A program made the translations under genes and the position numbers. This document shows positions 31,137-58,035 of a stretch of 59,566 bases of DNA, piece after piece. The stretch comes from a virus, in IMG/VR virus record IMGVR_UViG_3300033999_000053, positions 1 through 59,566 of that record; one strand, written 5' to 3'. Numbering within the stretch: position 1 is the stretch's first letter; each line of letters begins with the position of its first letter. The notes under the pieces were generated by a model that was given only the letters and a program-made list of their open reading frames with translations, searched no databases and was not told the DNA's origin.

Positions 31137-31694
31137 CTAATCCATCTTTAAGCAATTATAAAAGTTTTGTGCATATCTTGCTATAGTATCTGCTTTGTCT
31201 AGTCCATTAATTATCCTTCTAGCATTTCTTCAGTCTGTTTTTTTATCGTTAAAGTAATCAGATAGCTTTTTCCCAGTAAATAAACCTTTTTCCATACCTG
31301 TTACTAATATCTTAGCAGATATCTCAGTGTCTAAAGCTAATTCTGGATTTTCTAATAAAGGTATATCTAATATCTCTTCAAACTTTTCATAATTCTCATA
31401 TCATGTTAGTTGAGGAAATCCTCTACCGTAATAAAGTTTATCAGGATATTCATATGGCTCTCCACTATGTTTTATTTTCTTACCATATGGTCTGCCCTTA
31501 CCTTTACCATATTCTTCTATAGATAGCATAGTTGCGTTAGTCTCATGATATACAGTTCCTAATATATAAGCTATTTTTCTTTCATCCATATTATTACACT
31601 CATTAAGTATAGCTTCTATACTATCAACCTGACTTTGTAATAATTTCCCAAATATTGTACTTCTAATACAATTATAGAATTTTACTTTATCCAT
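31137..31694 (-). CDS. Endolysin: GH19-like lysozyme/chitinase, 185 aa
   Basis: ATG 31694 to TAG 31137, with TGA-Trp inside the key motif. YHETNATM carries the His-Glu pair typical of the GH19 catalytic site (HET). YYGRGFPQLTW is very close to the family signature YYGRGPIQLTW, the last Trp being TGA. GH19-type phage enzymes cut the glycan chain of peptidoglycan. No signal peptide is visible, so it would need the nearby two-span holin candidate for export. Adjacent to small genes and the holin candidate, it marks the lysis module. Confidence 0.85.
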
Positions 31695-44941: not shown

Positions 44942-45209
44942 ATTTTTTTAGATTTCCAGTCCTCCGAACTTGATAAAAATATATCTTCATATAATTTCTA
45001 GTTTTTAATTCTTCATATATATAAGAAAGAAATTCTTGAGGATCAGTTGTTTGTAAACTTATAGTTGTTGGCATCACATCATCTGGAATACCTAAGATTA
45101 GGGAGTAAACTCCATTATCATTAGTTACTTCTAATCTTCTATTATAAGTTGCTTTATATAAAGTCTTTATATAGTCACGAATCGTATTCTCTAATTCTTC
45201 TATTCGCAT
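44931..45209 (-). CDS. Small protein between TerL and portal, 92 aa
   Basis: ATG 45209 to TAA 44931. Starts with a helix (MRIEELENTIRDYIKTLYKA), then beta (RRLEVTNDNGVYSLILGI), then a helix with LSYIYEELKTRNYMK. The start lies eight nt after the TGA near the end of TerL, or inside TerL if that TGA is read as Trp. Ends 11 nt inside portal. Function unknown; the coupling suggests a packaging or head-assembly partner. Confidence 0.65.
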   Translation of the reverse strand: MRIEELENTIRDYIKTLYKATYNRRLEVTNDNGVYSLILGIPDDVMPTTISLQTTDPQEFLSYIYEELKTRNYMKIYFYQVRRTGNLKKYEI

Positions 45210-47274
45210 CTTTTTCTCAGTCTGTTTTAGGTATTACCCCATAATGTCTATATCCATTACTATCTGTCCATCACCCAAAATCTCTAAAGTTTTTAGCTAC
45301 TTCCTGTCTTTCAACTGGGACTTTTGAAGATAACTCTTCATCTGCCAGTTCAGCCATAATCATAGCAGCAACAATGTCAAACTCTCTTTTTCTTTCATCA
45401 GAGTATCCTAATAGTTGTTCTAACATTTCTCTAAATGTTATTGTATTAGCATAGTCTAAACAAAAATCATAGACAAGTTCTCTACCGTGATTTATAGTTT
45501 TTTCATTAGATGGTGCTCCATACATATTAGAATTAGACTTAGAAACATCAGATAGTGTAGCTCTAGGTCTCTTCATAAGCATGTACATATATTTTTTATC
45601 TCTAAAATATGTAAGTAAGGCTGTTCTGGTAGATTCAAGAACTGCTTTTGCCCCATTATAATATGTTAGTAGTTTTGCTGCATTCTCGTAAGCTTCTCTA
45701 GGATCTTTTGGTCTATCCTTATACATAGCTACATATTGTGGAGGATTTAAACCAAATACTCTTTTCTTTATAAGAATACAGAAATCTGATAATTTGCTTT
45801 GTTCCAATGTTGCTGAGTCTTTAGAACCTATATCTATAGAGTCTATACCTCCTACATATAAATTGTTAAATCCAGCCCCACTATCTCCTAATAAAGGATG
45901 TTCTGCTATATATATATTACCATTTGGATCTTCTCTTCATAAAACTTTTCCAGTTCTTTCTCCTCTATTTTCTCCATCCTTATATGTTTCCCAAATTAAA
46001 TAGCCTCTTTTAGGAGGTTCTATAGTTTTATATATATCCAATGCAGTAAGCTGTTCTGTCAACTCTTCTCTTGGAAACATATTATCTTCCTTTTGAAGGA
46101 GTGCTTCTTCTATGGTAAAACAGAATTCAGTTTTATAGTTCATGAATTCTTTGGGATCTAAAGCTTTCTTTTCTCTTTCTATATTGTACCATTCTATAGC
46201 TTTATCCCTATTACAATAACCTCTGTTGTCAATTAAAGAATAGACAATTCTATAAGCTGGAATAAACATTCCAGTAGTTTTATATGAGCCGTCAGCTGTG
46301 AAATTGTGTTTTACTGGGAGAAGATTAAAAGATTCTGGACTAGTAATCATATTTTTTAGTCCCTCCATAGACCCAGCTTTAGATGAACCACCAGTACCAA
46401 AAGCTATTCGCATACCAACTCTTTTTCCACCTAACACAGTTATAAGAGCTTCTCCCTTCGTTCATTTCCTAGAAAGTTCTGGATCTGCACCTGCCTCCTC
46501 GTAGATTAGCATTTGTACACGGTCACCTCTTAACTTGTCTGGTTCATCTACAATTATTCCTTGTATTTCAGACATTCGTCCAATTTCAGCTGAATCTTTT
46601 GTTTTTTTAGAAGCTCTTTTATGAGTACTAGTATTTATTACCATTCTTACTCTTTTTAGAGCTCCTTCAGTATTTTCATTAAGTCAGTCTAATTGGTATC
46701 ATAGTTTTAATAGTGTTGGATCTAAGTGTTTTTTAGAATAAGCAGTAACTAGTATCCTATAATTAGGAATCATAGTGTAATGATTTACTGCTATAGCTGA
46801 AGCCATTTCTGAAAATCCAAGTCCCCTAGACTTTAATACTGCAACATCTTTACCTAACAACTGACACATTTCTATATAATGGAAATATTCATATTGAAAA
46901 ACTAGAAAAGATGGAAAACCATAAGTTTGATTAATAGTATCTATCTCAGAAGTTTTTAGATTATAGAAATTTAAAAAGAAATAATTATCTCCTGTTATTC
47001 TATAACCATTCACTTCATAACCTTCTATACACCTCCTCATTCTTTCATCCCAGAATTCTTTATATTTTCTAGTTCCATATATTGTATTAGAATATCTTCC
47101 AGTGGATTGTTTCCTAATAGCATCTTCTCTAAATCAATCAGGATTAAAATCTAAACCTTCCTTGTCATTTATAGGTCTATACTTTGTCAAGAAATATGAT
47201 TTCTCTATATCAAAACAATCTATAGTATCGTTAGGCCCATAGTCTCAATACTGTCCTTCTATTATTGCTCCCAT
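45154..47274 (-). CDS. terL: Terminase large subunit (TerL), crAss-like
   Basis: ATG 47274 (MGAIIEGQYWDYGPND) joins five fragments across TGA codons (47240, 47130, 46690, 46462, 45937 and 45271). The ATPase part shows a Walker-A-like KSRGLGFSE and an acidic LIYEEAGADPE block; the nuclease part includes GGIDSIDIG and later DFCLDY. This is the motor that cuts and packages DNA. If the TGA at 45217-45219 is Trp like the others, the protein ends at TAA 45154 (706 aa) and overlaps the next gene by 56 nt. If it is a stop, the protein ends 21 residues earlier (685 aa), 7 nt before the next ATG. Confidence 0.9.
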
Positions 47275-48615: not shown

Positions 48616-49407
48616 TTATTTAAAATTATAATTAGTAAAAGTCTCACTAACAATTCTATATTTAATAGTATCTATACACATTCCTAAAATTCTAGAAGCT
48701 TTTAAAGCGGATTCATATTCAATTCCATCAATTATTACGGATCTATTTCTAAAACTTGTACCTTTAGTTATATTTTTACATTTTTTAACTTCTTTAGGTA
48801 TAACATATTGATAATTCTTAAAATTATCATTTGCTAATCTTTTTTGAATTGTATTATATTTAATATTAATAATTTCAGAAGCTTCTTTTATAGAATTATA
48901 AACTATATTATCTATAATTATTTTAGTATTTTTATATTCTAAAGTAGATTTATCTCTATTTTTAGCAGCTTTAGATAATTTGTTTTTATGATCTTCTGTA
49001 AATATTTTTCCTTGTTGACTTTCTCTAATATGTTTAGCATGTTCACTACTTTTTCTTACACATTTCATAGATTTACTAATCTTTAATTTAGTTTCTTCTA
49101 AATGTTTATAGCCTTCTATACTGCCTGCAATTTTTAAAATATTATATTCAGGTTTCAATGTGTCTAAGTAATATTGTTCTCTTGCAAGTAATTCTTCAGT
49201 TGTACATTCTTTAGATAACTGCTCTAAAATCTCAAATATAAAATTATCTTGTCCATATTTATTTCAAGAATTTTGTAAATGTTGATTAGGATGTCTATTA
49301 TTTCTTAATCGAGAAATATGACCACCTTTTCTTAATTTTATATTTTTAGAACTACCTATATAACATTTGTTATTTATATTATTTCTAATACAATAAATCC
49401 CTTTCAT
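48616..49407 (-). CDS. GIY-YIG homing endonuclease with DNA-binding repeats, 263 aa
   Basis: I start at ATG 49407 (MKGIYCIRNN), two nt after the previous stop; it ends at TAA 48616. GIY is followed by KCYIGSSKNIKLRKGGH and NKYGQDNFIFEIL with TGA-Trp before NKYG, the full GIY-YIG catalytic pattern. After it come HIRESQQGKIFTEDHKNKLS (a NUMOD3-like block) and two repeats of the type IIIDNIVYNSIKEASEI and VIIDGIEYESALKASRI (NUMOD1-like DNA-binding helices). Such enzymes nick or cut target sites to spread their own gene. It seems free-standing between intact genes. Confidence 0.85.
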
Positions 49408-49408
49408 A

Positions 49409-49615
49409 TTATAACTTCTGAAGATCCTTTGTATTTCATATTGCCTCTTGCAATTCTCCATCTTTTGTAAATCATCTACATAATATACCCTGAAAATAGG
49501 GGTTTTCTTTAAAATATCTAGTTACTTTCTTAACTACCAACATAGTTGGTTTATTTGGCATATCCTTTTTTAATGTAACCAGATCTCCTGGCAAAAAATA
49601 AACTTTGTCTTCCAT
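49409..49615 (-). CDS. DUF2158-like small protein, 68 aa
   Basis: Hidden under the standard code by two TGA codons. ATG 49615 overlaps the preceding stop (TAATG) and the gene ends at TAA 49409. The patterns PGDLVTLKKDMPNKPTMLVV and CRWFTKDGELQEAIW match the small DUF2158/YodC type (GDxVxLKSGGPxMTV, then CxWF). The function of that family is not known. The endonuclease gene begins two nt after it. Confidence 0.65.
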
Positions 49616-50169
49616 TACTTTATCCCCATCCTTATCTTTAAATCATTATTTATAATAGCTATAATCTGCGGCTCAGAAGTTACTAGATAACCTAGATTCA
49701 TAAAAGGGAGTGGATACACTGTTCTAGAATCATAGTACACATCATCTCCTATTTTTATATATTTAACATCTGGGCCAATTTCCACTACTTTAGCACAAGC
49801 AACTAGTTCTTTAGCTTGATCTATCTCTCCTGTATCAGTATTAAAGTATTTTCCATTTGGTTCTATAAAAATACCAGTATCAGTTACTACTTTTACATAA
49901 GGATTAGATGGATAAGGCATCAGAATTAACCTATTTCCATTAGGAATTAGTTCTAGTCCTTCTAATCTTGCTTCAATTTCTTTTTGTTTTGCTAAGTGTG
50001 CTTCTTTTAATTTTTGTGCTAGCTCTTCAGCTTTCTTTTCTTCTTCTAATTTTCTAGCTTCAGCAGCTATTGGGTTAGTAGGAACTACTATATTTTTTGA
50101 CATATTCCATTTACCCCTAAGTTGGTCTAATTCATTTCCCATAATTTCATTATCATTAATTGTTTTCAT
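49615..50169 (-). CDS. GroES-like co-chaperonin candidate, 184 aa
   Basis: ATG 50169 to TAA 49615. A charged helical N-terminal part (EARKLEEEKKAEELAQKL) is followed by a beta-rich domain of about 100 residues with LILMPYPSN, CAKVVEIGPDVKYIKIGDDV and YLVTSEPQIIAII. The GPDVKYIKIGDDV stretch and the terminal strand resemble the GroES fold (VKVGD, then YLIL-x-EEDILA). If correct it would help the host GroEL fold phage proteins. Moderate confidence; the family call is by pattern only. Confidence 0.55.
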   Translation of the reverse strand: MKTINDNEIMGNELDQLRGKWNMSKNIVVPTNPIAAEARKLEEEKKAEELAQKLKEAHLAKQKEIEARLEGLELIPNGNRLILMPYPSNPYVKVVTDTGIFIEPNGKYFNTDTGEIDQAKELVACAKVVEIGPDVKYIKIGDDVYYDSRTVYPLPFMNLGYLVTSEPQIIAIINNDLKIRMGIK

Positions 50170-50216
50170 TATTAAAATATCTATTTTTTCTTACCTGAGT
50201 ATAATGTTTATAACAT

Positions 50217-50489
50217 TTACCACTTTTTCAATGGGCAATGAGCCTCAGGTACTCTTGTTTTTGCCATAATGCGGCAGTTACAACCATTTATATAACCATC
50301 TATCTGTATAAGAGATAATTCTCCTGTTTTTGGATTTATCCATTTATGTTTATCACATATCTCTCCTAGTATTCTATCTTTGGTTAATAATTTGCATTCT
50401 CTACAAATCTTTATTCTTTCATTAAAGAGTTCTTGCTCTTGATTCAGCAACTCTTTGATGTGTCCAGATATTATTTGATCCAGCTCCAT
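50217..50489 (-). CDS. Cys-rich zinc-binding small protein, 90 aa
   Basis: ATG 50489 to TAA 50217, overlapping the nuclease gene by 19 nt. Cys pattern: CRECK, GEICDKH, GCNCR and HCPLKKW. The CPLxKW end and CxxC pairs are typical of a small zinc-ribbon-like family found in many phages. Function unknown. It may be a partner of the nuclease encoded just upstream. Confidence 0.65.
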   Translation of the reverse strand: MELDQIISGHIKELLNQEQELFNERIKICRECKLLTKDRILGEICDKHKWINPKTGELSLIQIDGYINGCNCRIMAKTRVPEAHCPLKKW

Positions 50490-51397
50490 TGTTTATTCCT
50501 CCTTTTATAATCCTCATATGCTATTTCTTTTTTGTAAAAAGAAAGCATTCTTTCTACATCATCTTTTCTATACTCACATTTATAAACTGTTTTGTTGTCA
50601 TTATGATCATGATGCAATAAATACAATCCTGTAACTTTTAAATTAGGATTATTTTTTTCTATAATCCAAGCATAAGTAGATAACTGAAGTTCATAATGAT
50701 AGTAATTTACATCATCTAAATGATTTAAAGGATAAAGCATCTTTTCACTTTTCTTCTTTTTTCTATCAAAGTAAGATTTAGTCTTTATCTCTTTATTAGT
50801 TTTGTAATCTACTATTGACACTTCATTGCCATGCACTATAACAAGATCAGCTTGTCCTGCTATTTTAAGCAGCCCATCATCTGATATCCTACTAAGTAAT
50901 AACTCTGGCAATACATAATAACCTTCTTTAATTTTATTAGAAGTATCTACTATAAACTTGTCTGAAAGCTCTGGAATATCATACTCTTTTAGTGCGGAAT
51001 AGTCATATGCTAAAGTTTTTAATTCGTAGTCTTTATGAATTTTTGTTCCTCTGTCACAAGCTTTTTCCCTGTTATCTTCCCACTCTAATAGTATTCTATT
51101 GACCTCACTATCAAATATATTTCTATCAATATTTAATTCATCAATTATATTCTCATCAAATATTTTATCCTCTAATAGTTTAGGTTTAATTTGTTTAAAA
51201 GTATCACCATCAAGTATATTTTCTAAAGCTTTGTATCTACTCCAAAAATATTCATCAAAAACAGAAAATTTATGAATCAAAGTTGTTACCGATATACACT
51301 TTTGAAGATCTCCTTTAGTCCAATATGTATGATTTTCATCATTATAACTTACTTCATCATTCTCTTTATCTACTTGAAGTTTTTCAAATTCTAACAT
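50471..51397 (-). CDS. PD-(D/E)XK nuclease (Cas4/RecB-like), 308 aa
   Basis: ATG 51397 to TAA 50471. SVTTLIHKFSVFDEYFW near the start, RGTKIHKDYE in the middle, and then GQADLVIVHGNEVSIVDYKTNKE with the Asp and D-x-K core of the RecB/PD-(D/E)XK fold. This type usually acts as an exonuclease in recombination or DNA processing. All Trp codons are TGG. It has its own promoter-like box and palindrome upstream and a terminator after the preceding PhoH gene. Confidence 0.75.
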   Translation of the reverse strand: MLEFEKLQVDKENDEVSYNDENHTYWTKGDLQKCISVTTLIHKFSVFDEYFWSRYKALENILDGDTFKQIKPKLLEDKIFDENIIDELNIDRNIFDSEVNRILLEWEDNREKACDRGTKIHKDYELKTLAYDYSALKEYDIPELSDKFIVDTSNKIKEGYYVLPELLLSRISDDGLLKIAGQADLVIVHGNEVSIVDYKTNKEIKTKSYFDRKKKKSEKMLYPLNHLDDVNYYHYELQLSTYAWIIEKNNPNLKVTGLYLLHHDHNDNKTVYKCEYRKDDVERMLSFYKKEIAYEDYKRRNKQWSWIK

Positions 51398-51416
51398 AAT
51401 TACACTTATTTATTTC

Positions 51417-51430
51417 TACTACATGTAGTA
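51417..51430. repeat. 14-bp perfect palindrome at the start of the nuclease transcript
   Basis: TACTACATGTAGTA is self-complementary and lies just downstream of the TAATTTTG box, close to where transcription would begin. It is a good operator candidate. Confidence 0.5.
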
Positions 51431-51434
51431 CATG

Positions 51435-51442
51435 CAAAATTA
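51435..51442 (-). promoter_or_regulatory. Candidate -7 box of a Bacteroidota promoter
   Basis: TAATTTTG on the minus strand matches TAnnTTTG, the same octamer as the box at 18109. The -33 region has only a weak T-rich element. It would serve the PD-(D/E)XK nuclease and following genes. Confidence 0.45.
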
Positions 51443-51486
51443 CAACTAATTTATAGAATAAATTATAAAATAGTGTTAAAATAAAA

Positions 51487-51530
51487 ATAAGCATACTACT
51501 AATAATCTCTATTAAAAGTAATATGCTTAT
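51487..51530 (-). terminator. Intrinsic terminator after phoH
   Basis: A 14-bp stem with one wobble (ATAAGCATA paired with TATGCTTAT plus five more pairs) closes a 16-nt loop and is followed on the minus strand by TTTTTATTTT. It lies just after the PhoH stop. Confidence 0.75.
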
Positions 51531-51562
51531 ACAAAAAATTTATATTTAATTATTAGTATGTA

Positions 51563-52246
51563 CTATATCCCATTCTCTCGTAACTTTATAAGTATCTTTG
51601 GGATTATAGGATTTCTAACGCAATCTTCATCTGTAAATTCTATAGTTCCTACTAATGGATCATCCTTAAATATATCGAATATCTTTTCTAATGGAGAGTC
51701 TTCCATTTTCTTTCTATCTATTTGTTCAGTATCTCCCATTAGTATATACTTACTTTTATTACCTATTCTAGTAATTAATGTTTTAAAAGTGTGAAAAGAT
51801 AAATTCTGTACCTCATCAATAATAACAATACTATTGTCTATACTTATACCTCTAGCAAAAGCTATAGGAAGAACACTAATCAACTTTTTATCCATTAAAG
51901 ATTTAGCTGCACCTTCTCCACATAGTTTATCTATATTCCAAGTAAAACTCATAATATATGGATCTAATTTTTTAGATACATCTCCAGGTAATGCTCCCAA
52001 ATCTTCTTCTGGCACAACTGTTAAACTTTTAATAACTATAATTTGTTTATAATATCCACCAAGTAAATCAAGTGCTTTTGCTAAAGCTACATAAGTTTTT
52101 CCACTACCTGATGGCCCTTTACAGATAACTATTTCTTTTTTATCTATTAAATCAATAAAATCTTCTTGCTTTTTAGTTTTAGGTTGAAAATCTTTAACTA
52201 ATGACTCCTGATAATAACTAGGGAGTCTGTTCTTTTGTTTACCCAT
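51563..52246 (-). CDS. phoH: PhoH-family ATPase, 227 aa
   Basis: ATG 52246 to TAA 51563. Walker A GPSGSGKTY at about residue 40, Walker B IVIIDEVQNL at about 125, and a sensor motif YILMGDTEQID. These match PhoH ATPases, often found in phages, with a proposed role in RNA processing or stress. The length equals the core domain alone, with no PIN domain. Trp is TGG. It follows dam by 7 nt and is ended by a clear terminator. Confidence 0.9.
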   Translation of the reverse strand: MGKQKNRLPSYYQESLVKDFQPKTKKQEDFIDLIDKKEIVICKGPSGSGKTYVALAKALDLLGGYYKQIIVIKSLTVVPEEDLGALPGDVSKKLDPYIMSFTWNIDKLCGEGAAKSLMDKKLISVLPIAFARGISIDNSIVIIDEVQNLSFHTFKTLITRIGNKSKYILMGDTEQIDRKKMEDSPLEKIFDIFKDDPLVGTIEFTDEDCVRNPIIPKILIKLRENGI

Positions 52247-52253
52247 GTTCAGA

Positions 52254-53117
52254 TTAATTAATAGGTTTTAGATTTGTTATTAGTAACTCTGTCACACCTT
52301 TTCTTTTATCTGGGTCTGAACTTATATTTCTAGATGCATATACTTTATTTATAATAAATTTACTATAAATATCGTAAAATAGTTTATTGTCTGAATTACT
52401 TAATAAAAATTTATACCCAAGTAAATCAAGATTTATGCAGAAATCTCTAAGTCTTAACTGTTCCTCATCATTAAAAGCTTCTTTTGTGTAAGAAGTAAAT
52501 TTTGCAGTTTTACTTATCGGTTTATAAGGTGGATCTAAATAAAAGAATGTGTTATCTCCTACATATTTTATTGTTTCTTCAAAATCTATATTCAATATCT
52601 CTACTTTTTGTAAGAGTTTGCTGTCTTCAATAATTGTTTTTCTATCGCAAATCTTTGGATTCTTGTAATCACCAAAAGAACTATTGAACAATCCTTTACT
52701 ATTCACTCTATATAAACCATTAAAACATGTTTTATTTAGAAATATAAATAATGCAGAGTTCTCTAATTCTCCTAATTTCTTTGTATTATAAAGTTCTCTT
52801 TTTAATAAAAAATATTTCTTTCTATCTTCTTCAGACAAAGGTAAATATTCATTAGCTATATTCTGCAAATAATTTATTAACTCTATTGGTTTATCCCTTA
52901 CTATTTTGTAAGTATCTATTAAATCCTTATTTATATCACTAATAACAACTCTTTTTATCTCTGGATGTGTATTTAGAATAAAAAATAATGTGGCTCCGCC
53001 ACCAACAAATGGTTCTATGTAAGTAATATCTTTAAAATCTTTGGGTAAAAATCTTTCTATTTCAGAAAGTAGTTGAGTTTTTCCTCCTACCCATTTAATA
53101 AATGGTTTTCCATTCAT
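52254..53117 (-). CDS. dam: DNA adenine methyltransferase (Dam type), 287 aa
   Basis: ATG 53117 to TAA 52254. KPFIKWVGGKTQLL binds S-adenosylmethionine, TYIEPFVGGGATLFF is the second block, and FFYLDPPYKPI is the catalytic DPPY. The order is that of N6-adenine enzymes of the Dam type (alpha class). It probably protects phage DNA from host restriction or marks DNA for replication. Trp is TGG. A strong inverted repeat lies upstream. Confidence 0.93.
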   Translation of the reverse strand: MNGKPFIKWVGGKTQLLSEIERFLPKDFKDITYIEPFVGGGATLFFILNTHPEIKRVVISDINKDLIDTYKIVRDKPIELINYLQNIANEYLPLSEEDRKKYFLLKRELYNTKKLGELENSALFIFLNKTCFNGLYRVNSKGLFNSSFGDYKNPKICDRKTIIEDSKLLQKVEILNIDFEETIKYVGDNTFFYLDPPYKPISKTAKFTSYTKEAFNDEEQLRLRDFCINLDLLGYKFLLSNSDNKLFYDIYSKFIINKVYASRNISSDPDKRKGVTELLITNLKPIN

Positions 53118-53436: not shown

Positions 53437-53521
53437 GTTAATTATTTCTAAATACTATAGATATTCTTTTAATCTGTTTCATGCGCCTTCTAAGGGATTC
53501 AAACCCCTATAGGTGGTTTTG

Positions 53522-54141
53522 CTTACTACTATAACTTTCGTTACCATTATTAAATATAATGTTTGTAGTCTGGAGTACATCTTTACCATATCATATAGAC
53601 TTAGGTAGAGGATTATCTACTCTCTACGGGCCAGACTATTCTGTTCCCTCGATGTTGTCATCAGCATTACCTGTTAAGAGTTCATCGATATCATCCTCTC
53701 CATTTATAATGTTTCCATTATAAAGCTCCATTAAACTAAAATTATTTTTAAATTGCTCTATAACCTTTATGGATATAGTATTTTTATATTTAGATAAGAA
53801 TGTTATTGGAATAATATATATATCCTTTGTTTCAATGTCAATACCTATAAAGTAGTCAATTATGTCACTAGTATAAAGTGTTATCTTATATCCTGTACCA
53901 TTATGATTCACTTTTCTTATAGGTATGAACTTTTTTCCCTCTTTGTTGCTTTGGACTGTTTTTATTTGTAATTTTAAATAAATATTGTTCTTTTCAACAA
54001 TCATATCTACTTTTCCATTTTCCATTGAAGGCTTAAAAACATTGAAACCATTTCTAATAAATATTTCCTCTGTTATTAAACTTCCATAATATCCTTTCTC
54101 TATTGCTCCCAATTTCATTTTAATAATTTTAGTTTTTATTA
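53522..54141 (-). other. Group I intron of about 620 nt in the suppressor tRNA
   Basis: Boundaries were set by restoring the tRNA fold: the 5' exon ends in T and the intron ends in G, the group I rule. After the endonuclease stop comes a compact structured core: an 8-bp pair TAGTCTGG/CCAGACTA (53631-53638 with 53566-53573), an R-like element CAGACTAC and an S-like element GTTATAGTAG that can form P7, and a GNRA-type hairpin GTAAC-GAAA-GTTAT. The P1 pairing was not pinned down by eye. Splicing is expected to be self-catalysed. Confidence 0.8.
53636..54118 (-). CDS. PD-(D/E)XK homing endonuclease inside the tRNA intron, 160 aa
   Basis: Start chosen at ATG 54118 (MKLGAIEKGYYGSLITEEIF), inside the intron; an upstream ATG at 54160 lies in the exon and would add 14 residues. 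Ends at TAG 53636, which is part of a core stem. GKVDMIVEKNNIYLKLQIKT gives Asp then Q-x-K, the variant of PD-(D/E)XK seen in I-Ssp6803I, a homing enzyme found in a tRNA-fMet group I intron of a cyanobacterium. The size also fits that family. It would cut intron-less tRNA genes and spread the intron. Confidence 0.75.
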   Translation of the reverse strand: MKLGAIEKGYYGSLITEEIFIRNGFNVFKPSMENGKVDMIVEKNNIYLKLQIKTVQSNKEGKKFIPIRKVNHNGTGYKITLYTSDIIDYFIGIDIETKDIYIIPITFLSKYKNTISIKVIEQFKNNFSLMELYNGNIINGEDDIDELLTGNADDNIEGTE

Positions 54142-54179
54142 AAGACCACTGTGTTGTCATTACACCAAGAAGGCATATT

Positions 54180-56778: not shown

Positions 56779-56982
56779 ATGAATTTGAATAAGGAAAAAA
56801 TATATACTCTTGTAGGAGTATATAACAATAGAAATATTTTCACAACATTAGATGGTGAAGATATACATTGTTTAACCTACAGAGAGTATAACAGATATAT
56901 AGTTGGAAAGTTATCTTGTGTTAACATGAGGTATAGTTTCCAACTAAACTGCTGGATAATATTTCAAGCAGTATTGTTATAA
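56779..56982 (+). CDS. Small early protein, 67 aa
   Basis: ATG 56779 to TAA 56982. A basic N-terminal helix and a beta-rich part (YTLVGVYNNRNIFTTLDGED), Trp as TGG. The first pseudoknot leader starts directly at its stop codon. Function unknown. Confidence 0.55.
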   Translation: MNLNKEKIYTLVGVYNNRNIFTTLDGEDIHCLTYREYNRYIVGKLSCVNMRYSFQLNCWIIFQAVLL

Positions 56983-57016
56983 GGGAGATGCCGAAAACCC
57001 TTGAATATAGTAGGCA
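56981..57016 (+). ncRNA. Pseudoknot leader element, copy 1
   Basis: S1 AAGGG (56981-56985) pairs with CCCTT (56998-57002); S2 TGCC (56989-56992) pairs with GGCA (57013-57016). The loop between is GAAAA, and the A-rich loop ends in AGTA. It precedes the 70-residue gene by 23 nt. See copies 2-4 for covariation. Confidence 0.8.
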
Positions 57017-57300: not shown

Positions 57301-57336
57301 ATAGAGTATGCCGAAAATCTATAAAAAGAGTAGGCA
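57301..57336 (+). ncRNA. Pseudoknot leader element, copy 2
   Basis: S1 ATAGA (57301-57305) with TCTAT (57318-57322); S2 TGCC (57309-57312) with GGCA (57333-57336). Loops GTA, GAAAA and AAAAAGAGTA. Precedes the AcrIII-1-like gene by 23 nt. Confidence 0.85.
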
Positions 57337-57995: not shown

Positions 57996-58000
57996 TAAAA

Positions 58001-58035
58001 GGAACATACCGAAAATCCATTAAATAGAGTAGGTA
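58001..58035 (+). ncRNA. Pseudoknot leader element, copy 4
   Basis: S1 GGA (58001-58003) with TCC (58016-58018); S2 TACC (58007-58010) with GGTA (58032-58035). The G-to-A change in S2 is matched by C-to-T. Loops ACA, GAAAA and a 13-nt loop ending AGAGTA. Confidence 0.8.

Follow-up and report, generated by a model that had tools for sequence, protein, structure and literature searches.

The analysed window is a 59,566-nt stretch (59.6 kb) covering the IMG/VR virus record IMGVR_UViG_3300033999_000053, and it carries on its minus strand a tRNA gene in two pieces. The 5' exon (54142-54174, minus strand) provides nucleotides 1-34, namely the acceptor strand GCCUUCU, the D arm, the anticodon-stem strand GUGGU, and C32, U33 and U34. 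The 3' exon (53484-53521, minus strand) starts at C35 and continues with A36, A37 and A38, the stem strand ACCAC, the T arm, the acceptor strand AGAAGGC and G73; the terminal CCA is not encoded. Joining 54174-54142 to 53521-53484 yields a 71-nt cloverleaf (MFE -23.8 kcal/mol) with all stems fully paired, a CUUCAAA loop containing the anticodon UCA, and G at position 73, so that the tRNA proposed in an earlier sequence-only reading of this DNA is reproduced to the base. With introns allowed, ARAGORN independently calls the split gene c[53483,54174] with a 620-nt intron and a junction between gtctt and caaaa. The tRNA-SeC(tca) label assigned by the program was rejected, since the 7-bp acceptor stem, the 4-bp D stem and the short variable loop are not Sec-like. 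G73, C35 and A36 are consistent with Trp identity, and charging with Trp is predicted. Neither ARAGORN without introns nor Rfam reports a single tRNA in the 59.6-kb window, as had been anticipated for the usual searches. No second UCA tRNA was found in the window, which is probably a fragment of its genome.

The structural genes of the phage use TGA as a sense codon. Open reading length in the window increases from 59% under code 11 to 89% when TGA is read as sense, vs. 63% when TAG is read as sense. All 126 in-frame TGA codons belong to a gene block at 114-49461 (minus strand), while the genes at 49615-53117 have none; the recoded large terminase gene (45154-47274, minus strand) contains nine of them. 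Opposite the TGA codons of the window, the sister contig L006 has TGA 33 times, Trp six times, and Gln and Phe once each; Trp occupies 8 of 22 such positions in cr115_1, and other relatives have mainly Trp, Tyr or Phe. These comparisons support the assignment of TGA to Trp in the structural genes of the window, and the UCA anticodon together with the recoding agrees with the proposed UGA-decoding function of the tRNA. Most terminase matches are to crAss-like phages (approximately 30% identity), with two unclassified gut records reaching 39-45%; by these matches, the phage is a putative distant crAss-like relative. Close to the terminase gene, a second homing-type gene (48616-49461, minus strand) encodes a GIY-YIG protein with NUMOD and I-TevI DNA-binding domains. 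The Rfam DUF805b motif occurs three times before plus-strand ORFs (56981-57016, 57301-57336 and 57999-58035, plus strand), and these copies are perhaps repeated regulatory elements or early-gene promoters.

The two exons are separated by a predicted group I intron of 620 nt (53522-54141, minus strand) inserted between U34 and C35 and ending with a G (G53522), as indicated by the ARAGORN boundaries, covariation and a covariance model match. An alignment of 25 cores has a shared structure from P2 to P9 that includes the P3/P7 pseudoknot, all on the minus strand in the window. P2 is a hairpin with a GAAA tetraloop (53703-53724). The 5' strand of P3, AGAGGAU (53693-53699), pairs with AUCCUCU (53607-53613), with both-sided changes in six of the seven pairs. 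The region 53646-53687 contains P4 (53687-53683 / 53654-53650), P5 between its strands and the 5' strand of P6 (53648-53646), where 97.6%, 100% and 96% of the aligned cells are paired, with double changes. In P7, GAGUA (53618-53622) is pseudoknotted with UACUC (53573-53577) and is paired in 97.6% of the cells, with double changes at two pairs. P8 (53585-53606; ACC at 53606-53604 with GGU at 53587-53585) is paired in 100% of the cells, and P9 (53525-53569; 53569-53565 / 53529-53525), which encloses a GAAA hairpin at 53544-53531, in 99.2% and 97.6%.

The internal guide GAG (53726-53728, minus strand) was identified by reading the sequence, and GAGC is conserved here in most of the aligned UCA introns. 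It could form P1 with the exon CUU (54144-54142), placing a wobble pair of U34 (54142) with G53728 at the 5' splice site. This helix would be short and extend only weakly into the exon. A candidate P1 extension, also read from the sequence, is an 11-bp helix between CUAAAAUUAUU (54122-54132, minus strand) and AAUAAUUUUAG (53736-53746, minus strand), and the intron-encoded endonuclease gene would lie mostly within its loop.

Across the alignment, 90.5% of the core cells are paired, compared with 72% after shuffling and 33-42% for slid controls, and none of 500 shuffles reaches the observed value. Both-sided changes occur in 31 of the 44 core pairs, including those of the P3/P7 pseudoknot; helices P3 to P9 are 81.7-100% paired, and the window has a standard pair at every helix position. 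A family covariance model trained on 24 relatives, with the window left out, matches positions 53728-53522 with 167.8 bits (E = 2.3e-35); elsewhere in the window it finds nothing significant, the one weak match being at 31479-31572 (E 0.06). In contrast, the Rfam model RF00028 has no match in the window at the gathering or at permissive thresholds, nor in the whole split gene, nor in its 3' portion with most of the ORF removed. Thus the group I assignment of the sequence-only reading holds by the family model and by covariation, but not by the standard group I model. Since RF00028 also misses relatives of the same family in contigs L181, L193, L111, L213 and L212, we judge its failure to be a limit of the model and not evidence of absence. 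It does recognise a related intron in the tRNA-Leu(UAA) gene of a 735-kb phage (L001; 56.6 bits), and the 3' end of the window intron is 76% identical to that intron over 94 nt. The insertion is therefore best described as a group I intron with a complete core, for which self-splicing is predicted.

Inside the intron, the gene at 53636-54118 (minus strand) encodes a putative homing endonuclease of the PD-(D/E)XK family of I-Ssp6803I, an assignment that draws on Pfam, PDB, Foldseek and orthologs. The protein has 160 amino acids from the ATG at 54118, in an ORF that opens at 54160, inside the exon; the frame is intact, contains the motifs KVD...QIK and has zero TGA codons, and the 3' end of the gene overlaps the ribozyme core. 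The protein matches PDDEXK_5 (PF11645) in Pfam with E 8e-11, and its closest solved structure by sequence is I-Ssp6803I (PDB 2OST, E 1e-3). In a Foldseek search with the predicted fold (mean pLDDT 69.5), the top four matches are chains of 2OST, the best having E 3e-8, a TM score of 0.68 and 17% identity. Residues D38, Q51 and K53 are invariant across six orthologs and align to 2OST; we take them to be the catalytic D and QxK residues.

Relatives of the endonuclease were found neither by a related-locus search nor by tblastn in named phages, because those later reached through conserved intron-end patterns are only 40-58% identical and reside in uncultured contigs. Orthologs at this level of identity are located in the UCA-tRNA introns of L234, L236, L212, L228 and L197, and the UCA-tRNA intron of L222 has an HNH-like ORF at the same place instead. 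In L228 (5997-6443) and L197 (4598-5050) the endonuclease frame has an in-frame TGA where L212 has TGG, and therefore translation of the endonuclease there would depend on the very tRNA interrupted by the intron that encodes it.

An insertion in a tRNA gene could also be an intron removed by protein enzymes, of the archaeal or eukaryal bulge-helix-bulge type, or could resemble a group I intron by chance. Phage tRNA introns were called enigmatic in earlier work (PMC6784885), which leaves room for such a view. It is made barely credible here by the group I core, identified by covariation, the pseudoknot and the covariance model, by an endonuclease of the type that homes with group I introns, and by exact empty sites in relatives.

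The empty sites come from sister contigs nearly identical to the window, which were retrieved from IMG/VR by searching for the terminase. In L002 and L005, the orthologous position upstream of the terminase gene is occupied by a tRNA(UCA) without an intron, and the empty site coincides with the junction predicted from the window; the proposed cut between U34 and C35 is thereby confirmed, and intron-less orthologues do exist in relatives. The third sister contig, L006, also has an intact tRNA(UCA) there, but a different one. Since the sisters have intact tRNA(UCA) genes, UGA decoding appears to be the older feature and the intron to have come second.

The flanking genes of the sisters are approximately 99% identical to those of the window. 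When the intron is removed, the window differs from L002 by 19 substitutions, all of them located from -24 to +181 relative to the junction (205 nt). The upstream flank has 0 substitutions in 127 aligned bases, and no further substitutions occur downstream over at least 850 aligned bases, where a single indel of approximately 190 nt lies at +248. The outer limits of the tract are 53341 and 54166. In the anticodon stem, two of the changes affect both partners and retain pairing (GUGGU/ACCAC in the window, AUUGU/ACAAU in the sister). The window likely has the derived state, because the outgroup L006 matches the intron-free state at most of the differing anticodon-arm sites. Such a tract is expected as the co-conversion footprint of double-strand-break repair, and points to recent homing. 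Recombination between divergent tRNA alleles without the endonuclease is a weaker alternative explanation. A search for the donor and for uninterrupted versions of the tRNA of the window with the pattern GTGGTCTTCAAAACCAC returned only unrelated sequences and one Sec-like tRNA, and the donor was not found.

These data also bear on whether the intron still functions. It could be a dead insertion that no longer splices, in a dispensable tRNA copy, with UGA read by another UCA tRNA of the phage or the host; the probable incompleteness of the window and the failure of RF00028 are compatible with this. We regard it as very unlikely, as all core helix pairs in the window are standard, the endonuclease is intact, the exon stems are perfect, the anticodon stem differs from that of the sister by compensated changes, and the contigs L002 and L005 show a single UCA tRNA each.

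The split arrangement is not restricted to the window. A scan of IMG/VR with patterns combining the intron end, the exon and the T arm revealed further split UCA tRNAs in L111, L181/L192, L193, L197, L212, L213, L222, L228 and L234, as well as in L236/L240, where the 5' exon is unresolved. With L019, found in an intron-end scan, approximately a dozen other IMG/VR contigs have a split UCA tRNA. The family model matches all the split UCA loci, most of which were also in its training set. TGA recoding is clear in L111, L212, L236 and L228, and less clear in the others over the stretch read. In the complete L228 (115.7 kb) and L197 (143.8 kb) records, the split gene is the only UCA tRNA found by ARAGORN and by a pattern search for intact UCA tRNAs that recovered the positive controls L002 and L005. 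In the L197 record ARAGORN also calls a second possibly split tRNA (cta) of uncertain assignment at 88455-89172 (minus strand), whose 644-nt insert contains a TGA-bearing, GIY-YIG-like ORF.

Intact UCA tRNAs that share this exon core are commoner. An exact pattern matched 79 such loci, approximately 22 of which are apparently genuine tRNA-Sec, leaving about 57 vs. 9 split ones by a comparable exact pattern (ten matches minus L229, an apparently intact tRNA); being based on exact patterns, these counts are a rough guide only. Sec-like tRNAs with a 6-bp D stem and the anticodon UCA also occur in viral contigs, split in L019 (7950-8290) and intact in L166 and L173.

Another feature of this group is the presence of two anticodon arms, UCA and then CCA, within a single tRNA, seen in phage UCA tRNAs with a Trp-like D arm. 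The long 'variable arm' of these tRNAs is a second anticodon-like hairpin with the loop (C/G)UCCAAA, i.e. with the Trp anticodon CCA. Such tRNAs are split in L181, L197, L222, L213, L228, L212 and L111, and unsplit in L283, L293, L300, L318, L336 and others, so they are common without the intron too. They may constitute a distinct class of suppressor tRNAs.

The intron family extends beyond UCA tRNAs. A scan of IMG/VR for the conserved intron end identified 23 contigs, mostly with phage tRNA-Leu(UAA) but also with tRNA-Gln and tRNA-Met, and the same scan of bacterial genomes identified four MAGs, with tRNA-Leu or tRNA-Tyr. Group I introns of this family reside in the phage tRNA-Leu(UAA) genes of L001, L015-L018, L021-L027, L030-L037 and L341, the carriers including LR756501, a phage of 735 kb, and a cultured one, Agrobacterium phage Atu_ph07, that would offer a convenient laboratory system. 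Same-family introns are found in the tRNA-Tyr(GUA) genes of Clostridia MAGs (L040, L041). In Kolpuevirus and cr111_1 (L339, L340), a related group I intron with a GIY-YIG gene lies between pieces of the replicative helicase gene. None of the named phages with related introns (Kolpuevirus, cr111_1 and Atu_ph07) has one in a UCA tRNA.

Taken together, these observations argue with a probability of about 0.88 for a homing group I intron that occupies the anticodon loop of the phage UGA-decoding tRNA as a tolerated parasite, its splicing being obligatory but most probably constitutive. In co-infecting phages, the endonuclease would cut this tRNA gene where it lacks the intron, and the intron and its flanks would be copied into the break during repair. 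In the transcript, the intron would remove itself and join U34 to C35, and the mature tRNA, charged with Trp, would read UGA in the structural genes. Splicing would be an obligatory step in the maturation of the code-changing tRNA, because the unspliced transcript cannot yield it, although the step is most probably constitutive. The intron would thus persist at an indispensable, conserved site, tolerated because it splices.

An alternative is that the intron acts as a regulatory gate, the rate or timing of splicing holding back UGA decoding and thereby confining the translation of structural and lysis genes to the late phase. In its fullest form this would make the intron a ribozyme switch of the genetic code, with splicing slow or conditional on GTP level, temperature or translation of the intron ORF, and with the endonuclease itself, where its frame has UGA, made only after the tRNA is spliced. 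The restriction of TGA to the structural block and its absence from 49615-53117 would suit such a gate, as would the recurrence of the split arrangement in about a dozen contigs and the TGA at a Trp site of the endonuclease frame in L228 and L197; a similar role has been proposed for theta ribozymes beside suppressor tRNAs (PMC10879173). However, near-identical phages share the recoding without the intron, intact UCA tRNAs of this exon type outnumber the split ones, and the same intron family occupies ordinary tRNA-Leu, -Gln, -Met and -Tyr genes and sites beside helicase gene pieces. Because sisters with approximately 99% identity in the flanking genes manage without the intron, gating is unnecessary for the recoding programme, and we consider both the gate and the switch unlikely. 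The earlier claim that splicing is a condition for late translation stands in that an unspliced transcript gives no such tRNA, but the intron-free sisters argue against a gating requirement.

With the tolerated homing intron as the preferred reading, a code-changing phage tRNA is a recurrent landing site for a homing, predicted self-splicing intron. With the code-changing tRNA interrupted, a single ribozyme reaction would decide whether a large part of the structural genes can be expressed. The intron-free and intron-bearing forms in near-identical phages constitute a natural experiment on the cost or use of the intron. Recoded crAss-like genomes without a detectable suppressor have been noted in two papers (PMC7886860, PMC12386605), and a split tRNA is one explanation for this published discrepancy. 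The split arrangement escapes tRNA and intron searches run with default settings, and the family model would recover such tRNAs.

The group I intron of cyanobacterial and plastid tRNA-Leu(UAA), like other bacterial tRNA introns, interrupts the anticodon loop immediately after U34. The window intron is similar in that a group I ribozyme follows U34 in the anticodon loop and its splicing would restore the anticodon. In contrast, it interrupts a phage UGA-suppressor tRNA, encodes its own endonuclease and is probably a recent mobile arrival. The Synechocystis tRNA-fMet intron, which encodes I-Ssp6803I (PDB 2OST), has in common with it the endonuclease fold, the PD-(D/E)XK-type QxK motif and the insertion in a tRNA anticodon loop, but the target tRNA is different and the endonucleases are 17% identical over the fold match.

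The phage group I introns known at the time of a 2014 review were all in protein genes (PMC3984707). The first phage tRNA introns were described in Lak phages (PMC6784885), and many were later counted in recoded jumbo phages (PMC13037316). As in the window, the main texts on Lak and other recoded jumbo phages describe intron-interrupted tRNA genes with intron-free alleles in relatives (PMC6784885, PMC8346664, PMC13037316). Unlike in the window, the Lak introns are in tRNA-Tyr and tRNA-Thr, are unclassified in the main text, and accompany the recoding of TAG (PMC6784885). The arrangement had been thought to be a single undescribed case, but split UCA tRNAs are present in approximately a dozen IMG/VR contigs. 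Interrupted tRNA genes of recoded phages were already on record (PMC6784885), but the main texts of PMC6784885, PMC8346664 and PMC13037316 contain no group I intron in a UGA-decoding tRNA. No earlier report of one in such a tRNA was found, although priority is not certain.

With opal suppressors, crAss-like phages likewise use a tRNA(UCA) of their own to decode TGA as Trp in late genes, and the protein genes of zeta crAss-like phages are rich in introns; introns in the suppressor tRNAs, as in the window, are not described there (PMC7886860, PMC12386605). Theta ribozymes beside phage suppressor tRNAs also occur in recoded phages, and there too the maturation of the suppressor tRNA requires a ribozyme or is coupled to one. 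However, theta ribozymes are HDV-like, self-cleaving and adjoin the tRNA, whereas the window intron interrupts the anticodon itself and is predicted to be self-splicing (PMC10879173).
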